From assembly GCF_000744775.1 (NCBI RefSeq), contig NZ_JQMP01000003.1:1178001-1242000 (forward strand): a DNA stretch of 64,000 nucleotides. The letters are read 5' to 3'. A program made the translations under genes and the position numbers. The stretch is from Thermorudis peleae (GTDB taxonomy: Bacteria > Chloroflexota > Chloroflexia > Thermomicrobiales > Thermomicrobiaceae). Of this stretch, positions 3,281 to 57,374 are shown piece by piece (the stretch's first letter is position 1; each line of letters opens with the position of its first letter). The notes below the pieces were generated by a model. That model searched no databases, was not told the DNA's origin, and saw only the letters and a list, made by a program, of their open reading frames with translations.

Positions 3281-4341
3281 GACCGCTCTTCTGCCGCGCG
3301 TTCGTCGTCACGACGCTGACTTGGCGGCTGCCGTGACTGGCGGGTGTCAACCCGTGGACGCCGAAAGAGGCTCCCAAGGAACATCTGCTGCATTTGTTGG
3401 CCGAGGGAGAGCGAGGCGAGCTCATTCGCGGTCTGCTGCGTGAGTTCGCCTGGCCGACGTTCTTGCGTAGCCCACTCAGCACGGGCATCGCGCACAGAGA
3501 CAAAGAGTTGGTGGAGCTCTTGTTGTGCCTCTTCAGTGTTTTGGGCAATGAGGTCGCGAAGGTGTGAAAGCTCGGTAATCGTTCGGTCGAGCCATCGGAC
3601 GATCTGCTGCGAGTTCGTGGCACAGATGTCGCGATACATCTCGGGGCTCCCCCCGGCGAGGCGTGTGGCGTCCCGAAAGCCGCTGGCCGTGAGTTTCCGG
3701 ATATCCCGCCATGCGGGGTCTTGGCTCACTGTATGCATGAGACCGACAGCTAACAAAAATGGAACGTGGCTAATTGCTGCAACGTAGCTATCGTGTTCCT
3801 CGGGATCGATGAAGAGCGGTTCGGCTCCGAGTGCACTGATGAGTCCAAGGACCGTTTGAATTGCTGTCTCACTCGCGGTTACAAGTGGACTCACACACCA
3901 GGTTGCGCCCTGAAACAGGTCGGCATCGGCACCCTCAATACTCTGGGTTTTGCCAGCCATTGGATGTCCACCGACGAAGGGGATCGTTGGCGGCAAGATG
4001 GTTTTTGCCCAATTCAGAACTGCCGCTTTTGTGCTCGCTGTATCAGTAACAACCGTTCCTTCACGAGCATGATCAGCGATGGCGTGAAACAGTTCGGGAA
4101 ATGTGCTGACTGGTGTTGCAAGGATGATCAGGTCGCCCTGCTCAAGAGCTTCGCTGAGTCGCCAAACAGTTCGGTCGACGGCGTGAATCTTTTTTGCATA
4201 TTGCTGATGGGCTAAATCGATATCAAATCCAATGACTTCAAGCGTTGCCGGTCGTTTTCCGCCGTCACTTGCCCATCGTCGGAGGCCAAGCCCAATCGAA
4301 CCGCCAATCAATCCAAGGCCAATAATCGTCACACGTTGCAT
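3277..4341 (-). CDS. tyrA: Prephenate dehydrogenase
   Basis: A 354-residue NAD(P)-dependent dehydrogenase of tyrosine biosynthesis, oxidising prephenate to 4-hydroxyphenylpyruvate (possibly also arogenate). The Rossmann motif GLGLIGGSIGLGLRR starts at about residue 8. The TyrA-typical segments ILATPVSTFPE, VVTDTASTKAAV and VGGHPMAGK (with the conserved His) follow, and EEHDSYVAAISHVPFLLA is the substrate-side helix. The C-terminal 35 residues are basic and probably disordered, with no ACT domain. No other aromatic-pathway gene is nearby. The SH3-domain gene lies 18 bp upstream on the same strand, so the two may share a transcript. Confidence 0.93.
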   Translation of the reverse strand: MQRVTIIGLGLIGGSIGLGLRRWASDGGKRPATLEVIGFDIDLAHQQYAKKIHAVDRTVWRLSEALEQGDLIILATPVSTFPELFHAIADHAREGTVVTDTASTKAAVLNWAKTILPPTIPFVGGHPMAGKTQSIEGADADLFQGATWCVSPLVTASETAIQTVLGLISALGAEPLFIDPEEHDSYVAAISHVPFLLAVGLMHTVSQDPAWRDIRKLTASGFRDATRLAGGSPEMYRDICATNSQQIVRWLDRTITELSHLRDLIAQNTEEAQQELHQLFVSVRDARAEWATQERRPGELTQQTANELASLSLGQQMQQMFLGSLFRRPRVDTRQSRQPPSQRRDDERAAEERS

Positions 4342-51311: not shown

Positions 51312-51603
51312 CCCGACTCCTGACTCTCTGACTATGACTCCTCTTGACAGAACCTTTCGCCACGATAAAGTGTCGCATACAACGCAGAGCTTCTGCTGAC
51401 CCGGCGCGGTTTTGTTTTGGCTTATGGTGCCGCCATTGGCACCAGGAATGAGTCCACACCCTGGCTTCTGTGGTGCAGGGCTCATCGACATGGTTGGTGG
51501 GCGTTTGTTACCCTGAACAAAAGGGTGAGAGCGTGCCCGTATCTCGCGTGTAAGCATATCGGGACAAGCACGATACAGCATGTTACGGGAACAGGGGGAA
51601 CAT
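51312..51603. other. Intergenic region before the ThDP enzyme gene
   Basis: A promoter-like pair TTGACA (51344-51349) and TAAAGT (51366-51371), 16 bases apart, would give a leader of about 225 bases for the plus-strand gene. A small hairpin ACCCT/AGGGT lies near 51511-51527. No supported gene is present. Confidence 0.4.
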
Positions 51604-53208
51604 GTGCGAGTTCGTGGTGGGCAAGCGGTTGTCCATACACTCGAGCGACTTGGCGTTGACGTCGTCTTTGGTATTCCCGGCGTCCATACGCTTGAAATTT
51701 ATGATGCCTTATATGATTCACCGATCCGCCATGTCCTTGCTCGCCATGAGCAGGGCGTTGGGTTCATGGCTGATGGCTATGCCCGCGTTTCAGGACGCCC
51801 TGGCGTAGCGATTGTTATTACTGGCCCGGGGGTCACAAACGTCGCTACGCCGTTTGCCGAAGCCTATGCTGATTCATCACCAGTCCTGGTGATTGCGTCC
51901 AATGTCGAGCAGGCGTGGCAGGGGCAGATGCTTGGCCATCTCCACGACCTTCGCGATCAGCTCGGCTTAATGCGAAGCATTACCCCTTGGGCGAAGCGTG
52001 CGCATACTGTTCAAGAAATTCCATGCCTTCTCCATGAGGCGTTGACCTTCATGCTTGGAGGACGCTCTCGTCCTGCCTATCTGGAAGTTCCCCTCGACGT
52101 CCTGAGTGCTGAAGCGGACATCGACGTTGCTTCACTCACGCCAATAACGCGACCCGTCATGGCGCCATCACCAGAGATCGTTGCTGTAGCGGCCAAGACA
52201 ATCGCCACGGCACGTCGCGTTGTGATCTACGCTGGTGGTGGGGCAGTTGCAAGTCAAGCTGGAGCTGAGCTGGCAGCATTGGCAGAGTGGTTGCACGCTC
52301 CAGTACTAACCAGCACGCAGGGTAAGGGCAGTATTCCAGATGACCATCCGTATAGTGTGGGAAACCTCTGGGAACCGGGCAATCCGGTTGAAAATCTTTT
52401 GCGTGAAGCAGACCTTGTCTTGATTTTTGGCTCCAAGCTTGGCGCAATGGAGACGAATTACCAACAGATGCCACTCCCACCCATCCGCATTCGCGTTGAT
52501 GCTGATCCGCAGGAGATATTACGCAACTATCCACCAACGATCCCCATCGTTGCCGATTGCCGGCTCACAGCACGTGCCTTACTCGAGGCTCTGCGACATG
52601 AGCGTCTTCAATGCGCAGGCTGGTCGCCGGATGAGGTTGCTGCAGTTCGGCAGAAGGCTCTGGCACGAGCGTGGGGGCATGAGCAGGCAGCCTACATACG
52701 TGCAATTCGCTCAGCTCTTCCGCGCGACGGCATCCTTGTGGTTGACATGACGATGATGGGCTACGTCGCGAATCGCTTCTATCCCGTCTATACACCGCGA
52801 AGTTACCTCTTCCCGACTGGCTACGGAACGCTCGGCTTTGCGCTGCCAGCAGCAATTGGTGCGAAAATTGCCCGACCTGATGTGCCAGTTGTGGCTTTGG
52901 TTGGTGATGGCGGATTCCAATACACTATGGAAGAACTCGGAGCAGCGGTACAACTTGGGATCGGTTTGCCGATTATCCTCTGCAACGATTCCGCATATAC
53001 CGCTGTCAAGGACGAGCAGGCGCGACGTTTTGATCGCCGTTTTATTGCGGTTGATCTCGTCAATCCCGATTTTCAGCGTCTTGCTGCCGCATATGGGATT
53101 CCATCGGTGCGCGTAGCCTCACCGGAGCAACTGCAAGACGCGTTGAGTGTTGCGCTTGAGCGCTCTGTGCCGACGGTGATTGAGCTTCCGGTTTCTTTTC
53201 CGGTGTAG
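51604..53208 (+). CDS. Thiamine-diphosphate-dependent enzyme, acetolactate synthase-like
   Basis: A 534-residue ThDP enzyme of the IlvB/benzoylformate decarboxylase superfamily. The N-terminal PYR domain has FGIPGVHTLEIYDAL and the catalytic Glu in LARHEQGVGFMADGYARVSG. The central domain begins near residue 185. The C-terminal PP domain has VALVGDGGFQYTMEELGAAV and IILCNDSAY, the metal/ThDP-binding motif. True acetolactate synthase is not shown: no regulatory ilvN gene is adjacent, and related families decarboxylate other 2-oxo acids. The GTG at 51604 has GGGGGA upstream; ATG 51580 is an alternative. Confidence 0.85.
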   Translation: MRVRGGQAVVHTLERLGVDVVFGIPGVHTLEIYDALYDSPIRHVLARHEQGVGFMADGYARVSGRPGVAIVITGPGVTNVATPFAEAYADSSPVLVIASNVEQAWQGQMLGHLHDLRDQLGLMRSITPWAKRAHTVQEIPCLLHEALTFMLGGRSRPAYLEVPLDVLSAEADIDVASLTPITRPVMAPSPEIVAVAAKTIATARRVVIYAGGGAVASQAGAELAALAEWLHAPVLTSTQGKGSIPDDHPYSVGNLWEPGNPVENLLREADLVLIFGSKLGAMETNYQQMPLPPIRIRVDADPQEILRNYPPTIPIVADCRLTARALLEALRHERLQCAGWSPDEVAAVRQKALARAWGHEQAAYIRAIRSALPRDGILVVDMTMMGYVANRFYPVYTPRSYLFPTGYGTLGFALPAAIGAKIARPDVPVVALVGDGGFQYTMEELGAAVQLGIGLPIILCNDSAYTAVKDEQARRFDRRFIAVDLVNPDFQRLAAAYGIPSVRVASPEQLQDALSVALERSVPTVIELPVSFPV

Positions 53209-53210
53209 CA

Positions 53211-55073
53211 ATGCGGTGTCAGGTTACCGGTCACGATCTGCAACTCTGGCGTTATCGGTGGTATGGCCGTCTCCTCGTTTCAGACGGGGTACGGAATTAT
53301 GCGCTGCCCATGACGGGAACGATTGCCCAGTGGTTTCAGCCTGGAGAAATCGTTGAATTCTCCCGTCTATCTGCAGACAAGGAGGAACCACTCGGGTTTG
53401 ATAACTATATGCTCGCACGCGTCAGCGATGATGGGCTCATACCAGTTTGGCCAGTATGGCAGGATGAGCAACAACTCGTTCGGACGCTACCACTTTCTGA
53501 CCAGCCGCTTTATACCTATCGCCTTCGTTTCCGCGAAGCGACGCGTGAATCGGACTTTCTCGCCATTGTCGACTTTGAACAGCACCACTACGCGGCTGAA
53601 GAAGCTGAAATCGCGCGATGGTACTGTCCCGACGATGGGCGCGTCGTTGTTGCAAATGCGCAGCCATTTTGCCCAGTATGTCATCGTCCAATGCGCTTTG
53701 CAGACCTCGTTGATGCCACACGAGCAAGTCGGTTTCTGCTTGCTGAGTTGCTTGACCGCGAGCCGTATGAGCCATCGGTGATTGGCTATGTCCGCGTTGA
53801 TCCTCCATTGCCGATCATGCATCGACGACTTCCTGATGGGACGATTGTCCGCGATATCCGTCGGCAGATCTTCCCTCCCGATTGGATTTCGCCGACGTAT
53901 TGGCCAGTTGTTGTGTACCGGCGTCTTCGTAAGGAACATCCCGATCGGCCAGCCCGTGAACTCTGGGCGATGGCAGAGGCCGAGGCGCTGGCTCAGTGCA
54001 ACACCCGTGGAGCACGGATTGCTCGCGTTGTCGTGCATCCCGACTATCGTGGTGATGGGTTAGGCGTTCGCCTTGTCCAGGCTGCCCTTCGCTGGATTCA
54101 CGATCGGCGCATTCCGGAAATGCGCCAAGCCAAGGATATCGTTGAAACTGTTGCCCTCATGGCTCGGTATAATCCATTTTTTGAACGGGTTGGATTCCGC
54201 TACCTCTGGGATACGGCGTCTGGCCGGCCTGTGCTCTACTATGCGCTGACGCCCGACGCGCAAACCCGCATCGACCATTTTCTTGCCCATGACGAAGTTG
54301 GGCAGCAGCATCGCGGACAGCTTTATCGCGCTCGGCTTGACCCGGTAGAACCATTGGCCGGCTCGATCGTTATCGATCATGTCACCAAGTTCTACCGCAC
54401 AACGTTAAGCCTTCGTGCCTTACCCATGTCGTTGCAGCAACTGCTCCGTGCTTTTGGTGTGGCCAGACGCACAATGACGAAAACCGTTTTCCGCCGCCTC
54501 AGTCTTGAAATTCCTCCACGCGCTATCGTTGCCCTTGTTGGTGCTTCCGGAAGTGGGAAAACAACACTCCTCCGCATGATTGCTCAAGCAGCTGGTGAAC
54601 CGTTTGGATCGGTTGCTCAGCCGGATACTGGACGCGTACTGGTGCCCGAGAACGTTCAGGTGGCCGTCTTCTTCCCTGGTGAGCGCGAACCACTGTTTGA
54701 AGGCGTAACACTTCTTGAAGCAGTATGGCGCCTTACGAATGATGAAGTTGCTGCGCTCGAGTTGCTCAATGCGGTCGGACTCGGCGATGCTTTGCTCTTC
54801 CGAGCAACTCCGGGACAGCTTTCAACTGGACAGCGGGAACGAGCACGGCTTGCGTTGCTCTTTGCGAGCCGTGCGAACCTGATCCTTATCGACGAATTTG
54901 CTGCTCATCTCGATCCATCACTCGCTCGCCGTGTGGCACGCAAGTTGAGTGAACTCGCTCGCCGGCTTGCAGTGACGGTCATCGTAGCGACTCATCGTCC
55001 TGAAGTTGTTGAGGCGCTGGCCCCTGATCATACATTGGTGGTGGGGTATGGCGGTGTTCGACCTTTAACGTGA
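53211..55073 (+). CDS. ABC-class ATPase fused to a GNAT acetyltransferase (COG2401-like)
   Basis: A 620-residue soluble fusion protein. The N-terminal 190 residues form an unassigned domain with a zinc-ribbon-like RWYCPDDG...FCPVCHRPM. A GNAT domain (about 225-345) has ARIARVVVHPDYRGDGLGVRL, the acetyl-CoA-binding motif, and ARYNPFFERVGF. The ABC ATPase (about 375-620) has Walker A GASGSGKTTLLRM (about residue 443), signature LSTGQRERARL and Walker B LILIDEFAAHLDP. There are no membrane helices. This architecture is best known from archaea and its role is unknown. The gene follows the ThDP gene by 2 bp and overlaps the convergent ASCH gene by 46 bp. Confidence 0.88.
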   Translation: MRCQVTGHDLQLWRYRWYGRLLVSDGVRNYALPMTGTIAQWFQPGEIVEFSRLSADKEEPLGFDNYMLARVSDDGLIPVWPVWQDEQQLVRTLPLSDQPLYTYRLRFREATRESDFLAIVDFEQHHYAAEEAEIARWYCPDDGRVVVANAQPFCPVCHRPMRFADLVDATRASRFLLAELLDREPYEPSVIGYVRVDPPLPIMHRRLPDGTIVRDIRRQIFPPDWISPTYWPVVVYRRLRKEHPDRPARELWAMAEAEALAQCNTRGARIARVVVHPDYRGDGLGVRLVQAALRWIHDRRIPEMRQAKDIVETVALMARYNPFFERVGFRYLWDTASGRPVLYYALTPDAQTRIDHFLAHDEVGQQHRGQLYRARLDPVEPLAGSIVIDHVTKFYRTTLSLRALPMSLQQLLRAFGVARRTMTKTVFRRLSLEIPPRAIVALVGASGSGKTTLLRMIAQAAGEPFGSVAQPDTGRVLVPENVQVAVFFPGEREPLFEGVTLLEAVWRLTNDEVAALELLNAVGLGDALLFRATPGQLSTGQRERARLALLFASRANLILIDEFAAHLDPSLARRVARKLSELARRLAVTVIVATHRPEVVEALAPDHTLVVGYGGVRPLT

Positions 55074-55438
55074 CGCCGCCGGACCCAAATGCGGGGCCCA
55101 GTTGGCCGTTCGAGCGCATACGGTGTTGGAAAGGGTTCTGGATCCTCAAGCACCCAAGCGTACAGTGGTTGCCCCTGAGCATACGCTTCGAGAAAGGTGG
55201 CGGGGGCCAGATGCTTCTCAATATGATCAAGCAATTCCTCGATGGTAAATGGCCCTAAGACATCAGTCAGTCGAACGGTGCCGATGAGTCCCCGGCTGCT
55301 GGCAATTCCGATGCGCCCACGAATCCGCGTTGGATAGCGCCGAATTTCCCAAAGTTTTCGCCCCTCCACGATGTGCGTTGCCCAGGGCTCACGGACAGTC
55401 AGAATATGCTCCGGTAGTTCGGGCTCGTCTTGTGACAT
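55028..55438 (-). CDS. ASCH domain protein
   Basis: A 136-residue protein whose core is an ASCH (PUA-like) domain, with HILTVREPWATHIVEGRKLWEIRRYPTRIRGRIGIASSRG in the typical position (residues about 12-50, quoted in parts: VREPWATHIVEGRKLWEIR). PUA-like domains bind RNA; some ASCH proteins are RNA-binding nucleases or amidohydrolases for modified cytidine. The ATG at 55438 has GGAGGGAG upstream. Its 3' end overlaps the GNAT-ABC fusion gene on the opposite strand. Confidence 0.82.
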   Translation of the reverse strand: MSQDEPELPEHILTVREPWATHIVEGRKLWEIRRYPTRIRGRIGIASSRGLIGTVRLTDVLGPFTIEELLDHIEKHLAPATFLEAYAQGQPLYAWVLEDPEPFPTPYALERPTGPRIWVRRRHVKGRTPPYPTTNV

Positions 55439-55471
55439 CGTGTGTCTCCCTCCACATGTCAGTATAGAGAC

Positions 55472-55500
55472 TTGACGGCGAGATGAATACCGCGTATTCT
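55472..55500 (+). promoter_or_regulatory. Sigma-70-type promoter of the cimA leader
   Basis: TTGACG (55472-55477) and TATTCT (55495-55500) are separated by 17 bases. Transcription would start near 55507, about 230 bases before the cimA ATG and about 23 bases before the leader ORF. Confidence 0.75.
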
Positions 55501-55529
55501 CTGAAGAAGAAGGGAAAGAGGCGCTGGAT

Positions 55530-55640
55530 ATGATGTCGCGCTCCAGCACGCAGGCTTTGCCAATCCGGATTCTCGCGATTATTCGGCCCCGCCTGGGCGG
55601 GGCTAGCCGGTGCTGGGGAGTGCTGTCATGTCGGCGCTAG
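55530..55640 (+). CDS. Candidate isoleucine-rich leader peptide for cimA attenuation
   Basis: A 36-residue open frame beginning MMSRSSTQALPIRILAIIRP. Four Ile codons (ATC at 55563, ATT at 55569, 55578 and 55581) fall within seven codons, along with a Leu codon (CTC at 55572). GGGAAAGAG lies upstream of the start. It sits between a promoter and cimA, an isoleucine-pathway gene. Starvation for Ile-tRNA would stall a ribosome just before the GCCCCGCC/GGCGGGGC hairpin (55586-55603). This is the standard design of a leader-peptide attenuator; the regulation is inferred. Confidence 0.6.
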   Translation: MMSRSSTQALPIRILAIIRPRLGGASRCWGVLSCRR

Positions 55641-55672
55641 GCCGATAACCAAAAGCGAACGCGAGGATGTCG

Positions 55673-55698
55673 GCGGCCTCCCCATGTGGGGAGGCCGC
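55673..55698 (+). terminator. Attenuator-like hairpin upstream of cimA
   Basis: GCGGCCTCCCC (55673-55683) and GGGGAGGCCGC (55688-55698) form a perfect 11-bp stem with loop ATGT. TGGGGAG (55614-55620) could instead pair with CTCCCCA (55678-55684), and AGGCCG (55639-55644) with CGGCCT (55674-55679), giving alternative structures. No T-tract follows, so the mechanism is open. Confidence 0.55.
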
Positions 55699-55736
55699 TC
55701 AGTATTGTGCAGTGGTCTTGCAATAGGGAGGGTACT

Positions 55737-57374
55737 ATGGCGGCAGAACCAATGACGTCCGGGCCAACAGTTGCAATCTATGACACGACGCTTCGTGATG
55801 GGACGCAAGGTTCTGGCATTTCCTTGACCACTGACGATAAGTTGAAGATCGCACGGGCGCTCGATCGCCTTGGCGTTGCCTATATCGAGGGCGGCTGGCC
55901 TGGTTCTAACCCGAAGGATCTTGCATTTTTTGAGCGGGCAGCTCATGAACACTGGGAGCATGCACGCATCGTAGCTTTTGGCAGTACACGAAGGGCGCAC
56001 GTCGCTCCAGAGGATGATGCTAATCTGCAATTGCTGCTTTCTGCCCAGACGCCGACCGTCACCATTGTTGGAAAAGCGTCAGCATTCCAGGTCGTACGCG
56101 TATTGAACACGACGCTCGACGAAAACTTAGCAATGGTACGCGAATCTGTCGCGTACCTGAAGGCTGCCGGGAAGGAAGTGTTCTTTGATGCAGAGCATTT
56201 TTTTGACGGCTACCGCGACGATCCCAACTATGCTCTTGCTGTCTTACGGGCTGCATGTGAGGCTGGAGCTGATGCTGTCGTGCTCTGCGATACGAATGGT
56301 GGGACGCTGACCGAGCCATTAACTGAAGCAGTGCGACACGTTGTGCGAGAAATTCCCTGTGTTGTTGGCATTCATACGCATAATGACTGTGAATTGGCGG
56401 TTGCGAACAGTATTGCCGCTGTGCGAGCTGGGGCGCGACATGTTCAAGGAACGATCAATGGCCTTGGAGAGCGTGTTGGCAACGCGAATTTGTGCTCAGT
56501 GATCCCAATTCTTGAATATAAGATGGGGTATCGCTGCTTACCACCTGGAAAACTTGCGCTCTTGACAGAGACCTCTCGCTATGTAGCGGAAGTAGCGAAT
56601 GTCGCGCACGATCCAAAGCTCCCATTCGTCGGGGCACATGCCTTTACCCACAAAGCTGGCCTCCACGTGAATGCAATTGCGAAGGAGCCGCGTGCCTATG
56701 AACACATGCCCCCTGAGGCAGTCGGAAACACGCGCCATGTCTTAGTGTCTGAGCTCAGTGGACGGAGCAATATTGTTCTTAAAGCTCAGACATTTGGCAT
56801 CGATTTAAGCGACAAGCCAGAGATCGTACGACAGATCGTTGAGCAAATCAAAGAGTTGGAATTTCTCGGATTTTGGTTTGAAGATGCCGACGCGTCACTT
56901 GAACTGCTGATCCGGCGAGCATTGCCCGGCTATACTCCGCCCTTCACTGTGCTCGATTACACTGTGCTCACTGAATATCGTGAAGGTCGTGGGATGCTGG
57001 CGGAGGCGATGGTAAAGCTTCAAATTCATGATCAGGTTTTCCATACTGCTGCAGAAGGCAACGGGCCGGTGAATGCCCTTGACGCGGCGACGCGCAAAGC
57101 GTTGCAAGCTTTCTACCCGCACATTGCCGATGTGCGCCTTGAGGACTACAAAGTGCGGGTGCTTGACGACCATCACGGCACAGGGGCAAAAGTGCGAGTC
57201 TGGATCCGCTCCGGGGATAACTTCCGCAGCTGGAGCACTGTTGGGTGCTCTACCAATATCATCGAAGCATCATGGATGGCGCTTGCTGATAGCTTGACGT
57301 ACCCGTTAGTTACGCCGTTACCAACTGGAACACAGTCAATTACTCCGGCAGTGGAAGCTAAGGCGTCTCGTTAG
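55737..57374 (+). CDS. cimA: (R)-citramalate synthase
   Basis: A 545-residue member of the isopropylmalate synthase family that condenses pyruvate with acetyl-CoA to citramalate, opening the threonine-independent route to isoleucine. The catalytic barrel starts AIYDTTLRDGTQGSGISL, with the metal-binding HTHNDCELAVANS and AFTHKAGLHVNAI. The C-terminal regulatory LeuA-type domain (about 420-530) has DALDAATRKAL and GTGAKVRVWIRSGD, the site of feedback inhibition, probably by isoleucine. The ATG at 55737 has GGGAGG upstream. It is preceded by a possible Ile attenuator. Confidence 0.93.
   Translation: MAAEPMTSGPTVAIYDTTLRDGTQGSGISLTTDDKLKIARALDRLGVAYIEGGWPGSNPKDLAFFERAAHEHWEHARIVAFGSTRRAHVAPEDDANLQLLLSAQTPTVTIVGKASAFQVVRVLNTTLDENLAMVRESVAYLKAAGKEVFFDAEHFFDGYRDDPNYALAVLRAACEAGADAVVLCDTNGGTLTEPLTEAVRHVVREIPCVVGIHTHNDCELAVANSIAAVRAGARHVQGTINGLGERVGNANLCSVIPILEYKMGYRCLPPGKLALLTETSRYVAEVANVAHDPKLPFVGAHAFTHKAGLHVNAIAKEPRAYEHMPPEAVGNTRHVLVSELSGRSNIVLKAQTFGIDLSDKPEIVRQIVEQIKELEFLGFWFEDADASLELLIRRALPGYTPPFTVLDYTVLTEYREGRGMLAEAMVKLQIHDQVFHTAAEGNGPVNALDAATRKALQAFYPHIADVRLEDYKVRVLDDHHGTGAKVRVWIRSGDNFRSWSTVGCSTNIIEASWMALADSLTYPLVTPLPTGTQSITPAVEAKASR

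Follow-up and report, generated by a model that had tools for sequence, protein, structure and literature searches.

A candidate isoleucine-sensing leader-peptide attenuator upstream of cimA in Thermorudis peleae, with counterparts of other codon content before leuA and ilvB

Organization of the cimA leader

The window, that is, the whole stretch of 64,000 nucleotides of Thermorudis peleae DNA that was analyzed, carries on its forward strand at 55737-57374 (ATG at 55737) a gene that had been called cimA, and its identity as citramalate synthase was confirmed using model TIGR00977 (688 bits, cut-off 450). A Shine-Dalgarno-like site of cimA is located at 55725-55732, and an ASCH-domain gene (55028-55438, minus strand) lies on the other side of the leader described here. 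All leader features are on the forward strand. The leader is preceded by a promoter, TTGACG-17-TATTCT, at 55472-55500 (-35 TTGACG at 55472-55477, -10 TATTCT at 55495-55500), which was the one promoter-like site detected in the region 54900-55900; shuffled sequences contained 0.4 such sites on average (sd 0.7). A purine-rich Shine-Dalgarno-like site at 55511-55521 is followed by the leader peptide ORF of 36 codons plus TAG (55530-55640), which encodes MMSRSSTQALPIRILAIIRPRLGGASRCWGVLSCRR. Within seven codons, ATC CGG ATT CTC GCG ATT ATT (55563-55583), this ORF contains four Ile codons, starting at 55563, 55569, 55578, and 55581, and one Leu codon. At least four Ile codons in seven were present in only 2 of the 846 short ORFs of the window (15-60 aa, first start), the cimA leader included.

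A hairpin directly 3' of the Ile codons (55586-55603) is possibly a polymerase pause site or a barrier to the ribosome. It is followed by segment 2 (TGGGGAG, 55614-55620), which was assigned as the 5' side of an antiterminator based on folds and arm-swap tests, and by segments 3 and 4 (55673-55698), which were identified from the sequence, folds, and alignment as a terminator-like hairpin of 11 Watson-Crick pairs (about -28 kcal/mol) without a U-tract in this genome. In the minimum-energy fold, segment 1 (55520-55553) pairs with about 55604-55637, giving the 1:2, or default-off, form. None of 200 dinucleotide shuffles of the region 55506-55740 folded as well as the native sequence (z -3.6). 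The initial annotation had described the promoter, the Shine-Dalgarno-like site with its 36-codon leader and Ile/Leu codon cluster, and both hairpins, and the sequence bears out each of these features and its position.

Conservation among cimA orthologues

A protein search for cimA was performed in 61 genomes (the window's own and 60 relatives). Close orthologues (70-100% identity) were confined to 15 genomes of the window's family, and the other matches were 23-37% identical. The 15 upstream regions compared were those of the window, of L002-L014, and of L174, the last representing a genome in which the gene start is on another contig. Loss of the leader ORF in relatives, or of Ile codons at this place, had been set beforehand as refuting the attenuator proposal, and neither was observed: an ORF was found upstream of cimA in all 15 orthologues. 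The order of parts was likewise the same in 15 of 15: the Ile-rich leader and its hairpin come first, then a segment containing GGGAG, and last a terminator-like hairpin that can pair through its 5' arm with that segment. The codons ahead of the first hairpin comprised 4-6 Ile, 0-2 Leu, and 0-2 Val in the open frame of every leader, with the Ile codons of the relatives in the same place and frame as those of the window; the other two frames held 0-1 Ile, and at least one of them was interrupted by a stop in 13 of 15. A promoter-like pair, TTGAC[AG]-17/18-TA...T, was found 5' of the leader in all 15 regions (with -10 patterns composed after the sequences had been seen), and it argues against a cimA transcript start downstream of 55640. 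Short ORFs are plentiful in this DNA, and the arrangement could in principle be a chance combination of an Ile-rich short ORF with unrelated hairpins; however, frame, codons, hairpins, and order were kept in all 15 orthologues, and coincidence is barely conceivable as an explanation.

A covariance model, R1, was built from 14 of the cimA leaders. Its strong matches, with E values of 1.7e-12 or lower, fell in 15 of 21 genomes of the family, all of them at cimA and in exactly those genomes that have cimA, and it recovered the leader of the fifteenth genome, which had been left out of the model, with an E value of 1.7e-12. No further strong match was obtained in 158 genomes of the class searched with stricter filters. 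A scan of 450 bases upstream of a wider set of cimA loci (the best 80 of 584, of which L031 proved to be the contig of L002, leaving 79) yielded at least five Ile codons in seven only at L043, and four in seven at L070 and L072. L043, from an Anaerolineae MAG, has the Ile-rich leader SIIIRIIAGISISIIRY upstream of position 4001, together with a U-run terminator and a 9-bp pairing of segments 2 and 3.

The peptide itself was conserved to a variable extent. In genera g3 and g6 the leader tails read IIxIIRPRVAGxxALGR with small changes, a near identity that would be expected if the short ORF encoded a functional small protein kept for its amino-acid sequence. The N-terminal parts, however, vary between genera, the conserved residues coincide with the first hairpin and segment 2, and leuA leaders of the same design (see below) have Leu in place of Ile. 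In the window, moreover, the frame slips two bases (net +2 nt) after the Ile codons, so that the peptide tail after RPR is unlike that of the relatives, yet the hairpin, segment 2, the terminator-like hairpin, and a nearby stop are all kept. What selection preserves therefore appears to be the codons and the RNA, not the tail of the peptide, and a small-protein function is considered highly improbable.

The hairpins were also examined in an alignment of 14 cimA leaders, as the initial annotation had called for their conservation to be assessed by covariation. Pairing was kept in 100% of cells for the hairpin at 55586-55603 and in 98.3% for the two hairpins together, and two terminator pairs showed replacement of both partners, an outcome reached by 8 of 500 shuffles. 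The covariation score was ordinary (138 of 500 shuffles).

Antiterminator pairing and co-evolution

Alternative pairing between the hairpins had been suggested from the window alone. Such pairing is predicted mainly between 55614-55620 (TGGGGAG), 3' of the first hairpin, and 55678-55684 (CTCCCCA), within the second, and not between hairpin and hairpin. Segment 2 was complementary to the 5' arm or loop of the terminator in all 15 cimA leaders over 7-14 contiguous pairs, the 7-bp 2:3 helix of the window being the joint shortest. The antiterminator was predicted in all 14 leaders tested when segments 1 and 4 were omitted from the fold. When the terminator hairpin was omitted, segment 2 was predicted to pair upstream (1:2) in 12 of 15 leaders, a leader being counted if three or more of six bases were so paired; this pairing was absent from the predicted fold in the remaining 3 of 15. 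Outside cimA, the 2:3 helix measured 13 bp before ilvB of the same genome, 15 bp before leuS, and only 6 bp before leuA of the same genome.

Co-evolution was assessed by exchanging terminator arms among leaders, the representatives being hand-picked and related. For 23 leaders, the helices formed with the leaders' own arms totaled 211 bp versus 172.6 (sd 6.7) with swapped arms, and the energies -548.8 versus -464.3 (sd 13.9); none of 5,000 permutations was as good on either measure, although a leader's own arm was unbeaten in only 8 of the 23. With 20 leaders (one per gene and group), 0 of 10,000 permutations were as good on both measures, and the same was obtained with 15 leaders after removal of cimA; removal of four of the longest, leaving 16 leaders, gave 86 and 1 of 10,000. 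The signal was weak within cimA alone (268 and 176 of 10,000 for five leaders; 481 and 440 of 10,000 for the nine cimA leaders of the family that were swapped). In the 14-sequence cimA alignment, 89.4% of antiterminator cells were paired versus 45.7-58.8% when slid; no antiterminator pair had changed on both sides, and covariation was not above that of shuffles (345 and 360 of 500). Pairing energies of individual leaders were often unremarkable relative to dinucleotide shuffles because the DNA is GC-rich. No terminator was recognized in the Escherichia coli control by the pattern used, and this control was dropped from the pairing tests.

On the strength of the complementarity in 15 of 15 leaders and the swap tests across families, the antiterminator appears to be mutually exclusive with the terminator. 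What sequence comparison shows is the leader with its codon content and frame, the segments that pair, and the co-evolution of these segments among related leaders.

Terminator hairpin and U-tract

A terminator-like hairpin was found before cimA in all 15 genomes, and the sequence following it differs between genera. In the three cimA leaders of g4, 6-7 T follow the stem directly (3 of 3), whereas no U-tract was present right after the stem in the cimA leaders of g1, g3, and g6: no after-stem T-run is longer than 2 in the window or longer than 3 in g6, and two members of g3 have TTTT some bases further on. 

The absence of a U-tract could mean that the leader senses isoleucine by stalling but that the hairpin acts via Rho/NusG, another factor, or some other downstream step, an explanation that overlaps the attenuation reading set out below. 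It is favored by the T-run hairpins that follow both the tmRNA and the SRP RNA within the window. On the other hand, the same element in g4 does carry its T-run, and the hairpin leaves the Shine-Dalgarno-like site of cimA uncovered. The terminators of the T-box elements before leuA (described below) provide a further comparison, with T-runs of at most 3 in g1, g3, and g6, of 6 in g2 and g4, and of 4-6 in family f2; since those of g1, g3, and g6 are also U-poor, such terminators look like a habit of the lineage. Expressed as T per 10 bases after these T-box terminators, the U-poor and U-rich groups had 1-5 versus 5-8, or 2-5 versus 6-9, depending on where the stem is taken to end; with the longest stem the counts overlap at 5, as A-T pairs then absorb part of the T-run in some genera. 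The two groups do differ, then, but they are not sharply separated. An output dependent on another factor or step is considered rather unlikely. Helper factors aside, we regard the 55673-55698 hairpin as a probable terminator with moderate confidence.

Related leaders before leuA, leuS, ilvB, and pheS

Weak matches to R1 (E about 1e-4 to 0.02) were obtained in g2 and g3 directly before a leuA-type paralogue. TIGR00973 identified the leuA gene of the T. peleae genome, which has leuC behind it, as 2-isopropylmalate synthase; the copy in genome G004 passes the same model, and the other copies in the family were named by similarity only. Sixteen leuA upstream regions of the family show the design of the cimA leader, and the seventeenth (L160) ends at a contig end. 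Fifteen leuA leaders were scored: the 12 loci of g2, g3, and g6 had 4-8 Leu and 0-2 Ile codons, whereas the 3 loci of g4 had just 2 Leu codons. The leuA leader of the T. peleae genome, which is outside the 15 scored, reads ...RSLLAGLVLSQPRGG... Further weak matches to R1 lie before leuS in g3, where the protein is partial (best model TIGR00396 in L171) and just 2 Leu codons fall within the part of the leaders that was scored.

R1 also gave a weak match before ilvB of the T. peleae genome (L173; TIGR00118, 767 bits, cut-off 538) and before ilvB in other families. An ilvB gene was found in 108 of the 115 class genomes searched. A short ORF with at least 8 Ile, Leu, or Val codons in 12 was located upstream of ilvB at 20 of 29 loci (omitting L204, which is cut by a contig end) and, by the same criterion, at 17 of 20 loci of a second set hand-picked for breadth. 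The base rate in the window was 13 of 1,044 short ORFs, or roughly 1 in 20 per 520-base stretch; single ilvB cases can therefore be due to chance. Within the family, a leader containing all three of Ile, Leu, and Val was present at 13 of 14 ilvB loci (best stretch per locus); L192 has 7 of 12 such codons, and no such leader ORF was found at L201. Ile/Leu/Val-rich short ORFs before ilvB were noted in many families of the class (L188-L212, L218-L237), and the measured loci often have a CCTCCC-type terminator, to which family f14 adds a T-box (L206, L208).

The codon content had been proposed to fit the pathway, and it does so beyond cimA, with Ile before cimA, Leu before leuA, and Ile, Leu, and Val before ilvB. 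As judged from their sequences, these leaders would constitute a natural codon-swap control. R1, although built on cimA leaders, weakly matches at leuA, leuS, and ilvB, which suggests that the leaders share an ancestor, and convergence may be the alternative. A weak match to R1 was also recorded before a pheS-like gene (PF01409) with Phe codons. At L177, in family f14, a short ORF containing a Phe run and a hairpin with TTTT lie upstream of a pheS-like gene and may make up a Phe attenuator; the start-like ORF there is in another frame than the PheS domain.

T-box elements in series with leader-peptide elements

A T-box core motif was present before leuA at 16 of 16 loci of the family and 3 of 3 loci of family f2. 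Of 10 leuA loci compared with the Rfam T-box model (RF00230), five passed the gathering score (L151 of the T. peleae genome, L152, L157, L161, and L169), and for leuS in g3, L171 passed and L172 did not. The specifier triplet, at positions read by the analyst, was CUC (Leu) in leuA L151, L157, and L161 and in ilvB L206 and L208 of family f14. The leader-peptide element is located 3' of the T-box before leuA (L151/L186 in the T. peleae genome, L152-L159, and L161-L167). A similar tandem design was observed at leuS L171 and L172, where the leader has few Leu codons and the antiterminator measures 15 bp. Among the titles and abstract openings listed, none described a leader-peptide attenuator placed behind a T-box.

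At cimA, no cis-regulatory RNA was identified over the window at Rfam gathering scores. The possibility that the cimA element is itself a T-box (RF00230) was considered and rejected, as no core with a specifier and a GGGUGGUACC antiterminator was detected there at the gathering score. T-box-like motifs (motif only) were noted at two other cimA loci, L041 and L067.

We give about even odds to the broader proposal that a single attenuator design was copied and recoded in this family, with Ile for cimA, Leu for leuA (sparsely for leuS), and a mixture for ilvB, and that a T-box stands in series before leuA and the g3 leuS, such that two leucyl-tRNA sensors would gate leuA, with U-poor terminators in three genera. 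For leuA, the question is then why sensing by T-box and sensing by ribosome should be stacked if both respond to the same tRNA.

Proposed mechanism

The initial annotation had put forward an isoleucine attenuator before cimA, and this proposal gains support from the leader, codons, frame, and pairing found in 15 of 15 orthologues of the family and from the recoded leuA and ilvB leaders. Based on these comparisons, the element is very probably a ribosome-mediated transcription attenuator that senses isoleucyl-tRNA, with an estimated probability of roughly 0.88. That the ribosome stalls, that transcription terminates, and which way the response runs are inferred, as follows. When isoleucine is ample, the ribosome would run through the Ile codons and the rest of the leader, 55614-55620 would be masked by the ribosome or taken by segment 1, the hairpin at 55673-55698 would form, and transcription would stop before cimA. 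When isoleucine is scarce, the ribosome would stall on the Ile codons and hold segment 1 and the first hairpin open, 55614-55620 would pair with the 5' arm of the terminator, and polymerase would read on into cimA.

Stalling could also arise from the nascent peptide, an Ile-rich chain in the exit tunnel arresting the ribosome in place of slow decoding, and the conserved Ile-rich hydrophobic stretch followed by RPR would suit such an arrest. The codons nevertheless track the pathway product across cimA, leuA, and ilvB, which is predicted by decoding and not required by arrest, and peptide-mediated arrest is thus regarded as very unlikely. If attenuation through codon sensing is correct, codon-specific attenuation would act on the step that opens the citramalate route to isoleucine, and the Ile, Leu, and mixed leaders before cimA, leuA, and ilvB would offer a ready-made natural experiment in codon exchange.

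Comparison with known systems

The ilvL leader of E. coli K-12 (L183; ilvXGMEDA operon) is regulated by ribosome stalling. Like the cimA leader, it has an Ile-codon leader peptide, MTALLRVISLVVISVVVIIIPPCGAALGRGKA, before a GC-rich hairpin, and by eye both peptides proceed from an Ile run through a Pro-containing stretch to ALGR(G). The ilvL hairpin has a U-run. Unlike the cimA leader, in which the codons are almost only Ile, ilvL contains Ile, Val, and Leu codons and serves a whole operon. The T-box (RF00230), which was found before leuA in the same genome (L151), resembles the proposed cimA attenuator in that it senses the supply of aminoacyl-tRNA and controls a terminator, whereas cimA is preceded by a leader ORF that carries regulatory codons.

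In Actinobacteria, ilvB leaders have been described as comprising a terminator and a short ORF in which Ile, Val, and Leu codons occur in runs (PMC1262725), and a study of Corynebacterium glutamicum ilvBNC describes terminator, antiterminator, and antiantiterminator hairpins (PMC11857589). Those leaders differ from that of cimA in gene, phylum, and codon specificity. Codon changes before ilvB of Streptomyces coelicolor were reported to be without effect (PMC1262725), and therefore not all such leaders work in this manner. A 2010 survey lists leader-peptide systems as known only from Proteobacteria and Actinobacteria, besides its own Firmicutes case and ermC (PMC2965389). Among the titles and abstract openings listed, none reported cimA attenuation, nor did any describe amino-acid genes under leader-peptide attenuators in Chloroflexi, Chloroflexota, or Thermomicrobium; the 2010 comparative paper of Lopatovskaya and colleagues could already list cases from the phylum. 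The cimA attenuator would belong to a known kind, leader-peptide attenuation, and it is the recoded set and the leuA T-box that may surprise specialists.

Neighboring genes and the isoleucine route

The model for threonine ammonia-lyase, TIGR01127, had matches in 20 of 21 genomes of the family, none of them over the cut-off. In g4, a sub-cut-off match to threonine ammonia-lyase is located upstream of cimA on the opposite strand (G003:C179, G008:C210, and G015:C169). Within the window, the gene at 51580-53208 encodes a thiamine-pyrophosphate enzyme that scored 501.8 with NF005712 (5-guanidino-2-oxopentanoate decarboxylase; cut-off 500) and fell below the cut-off for biosynthetic acetolactate synthase (364.7 versus 538.35). 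The gene at 53211-55073 combines GNAT acetyltransferase and ABC ATPase domains in one chain, as determined with Pfam.
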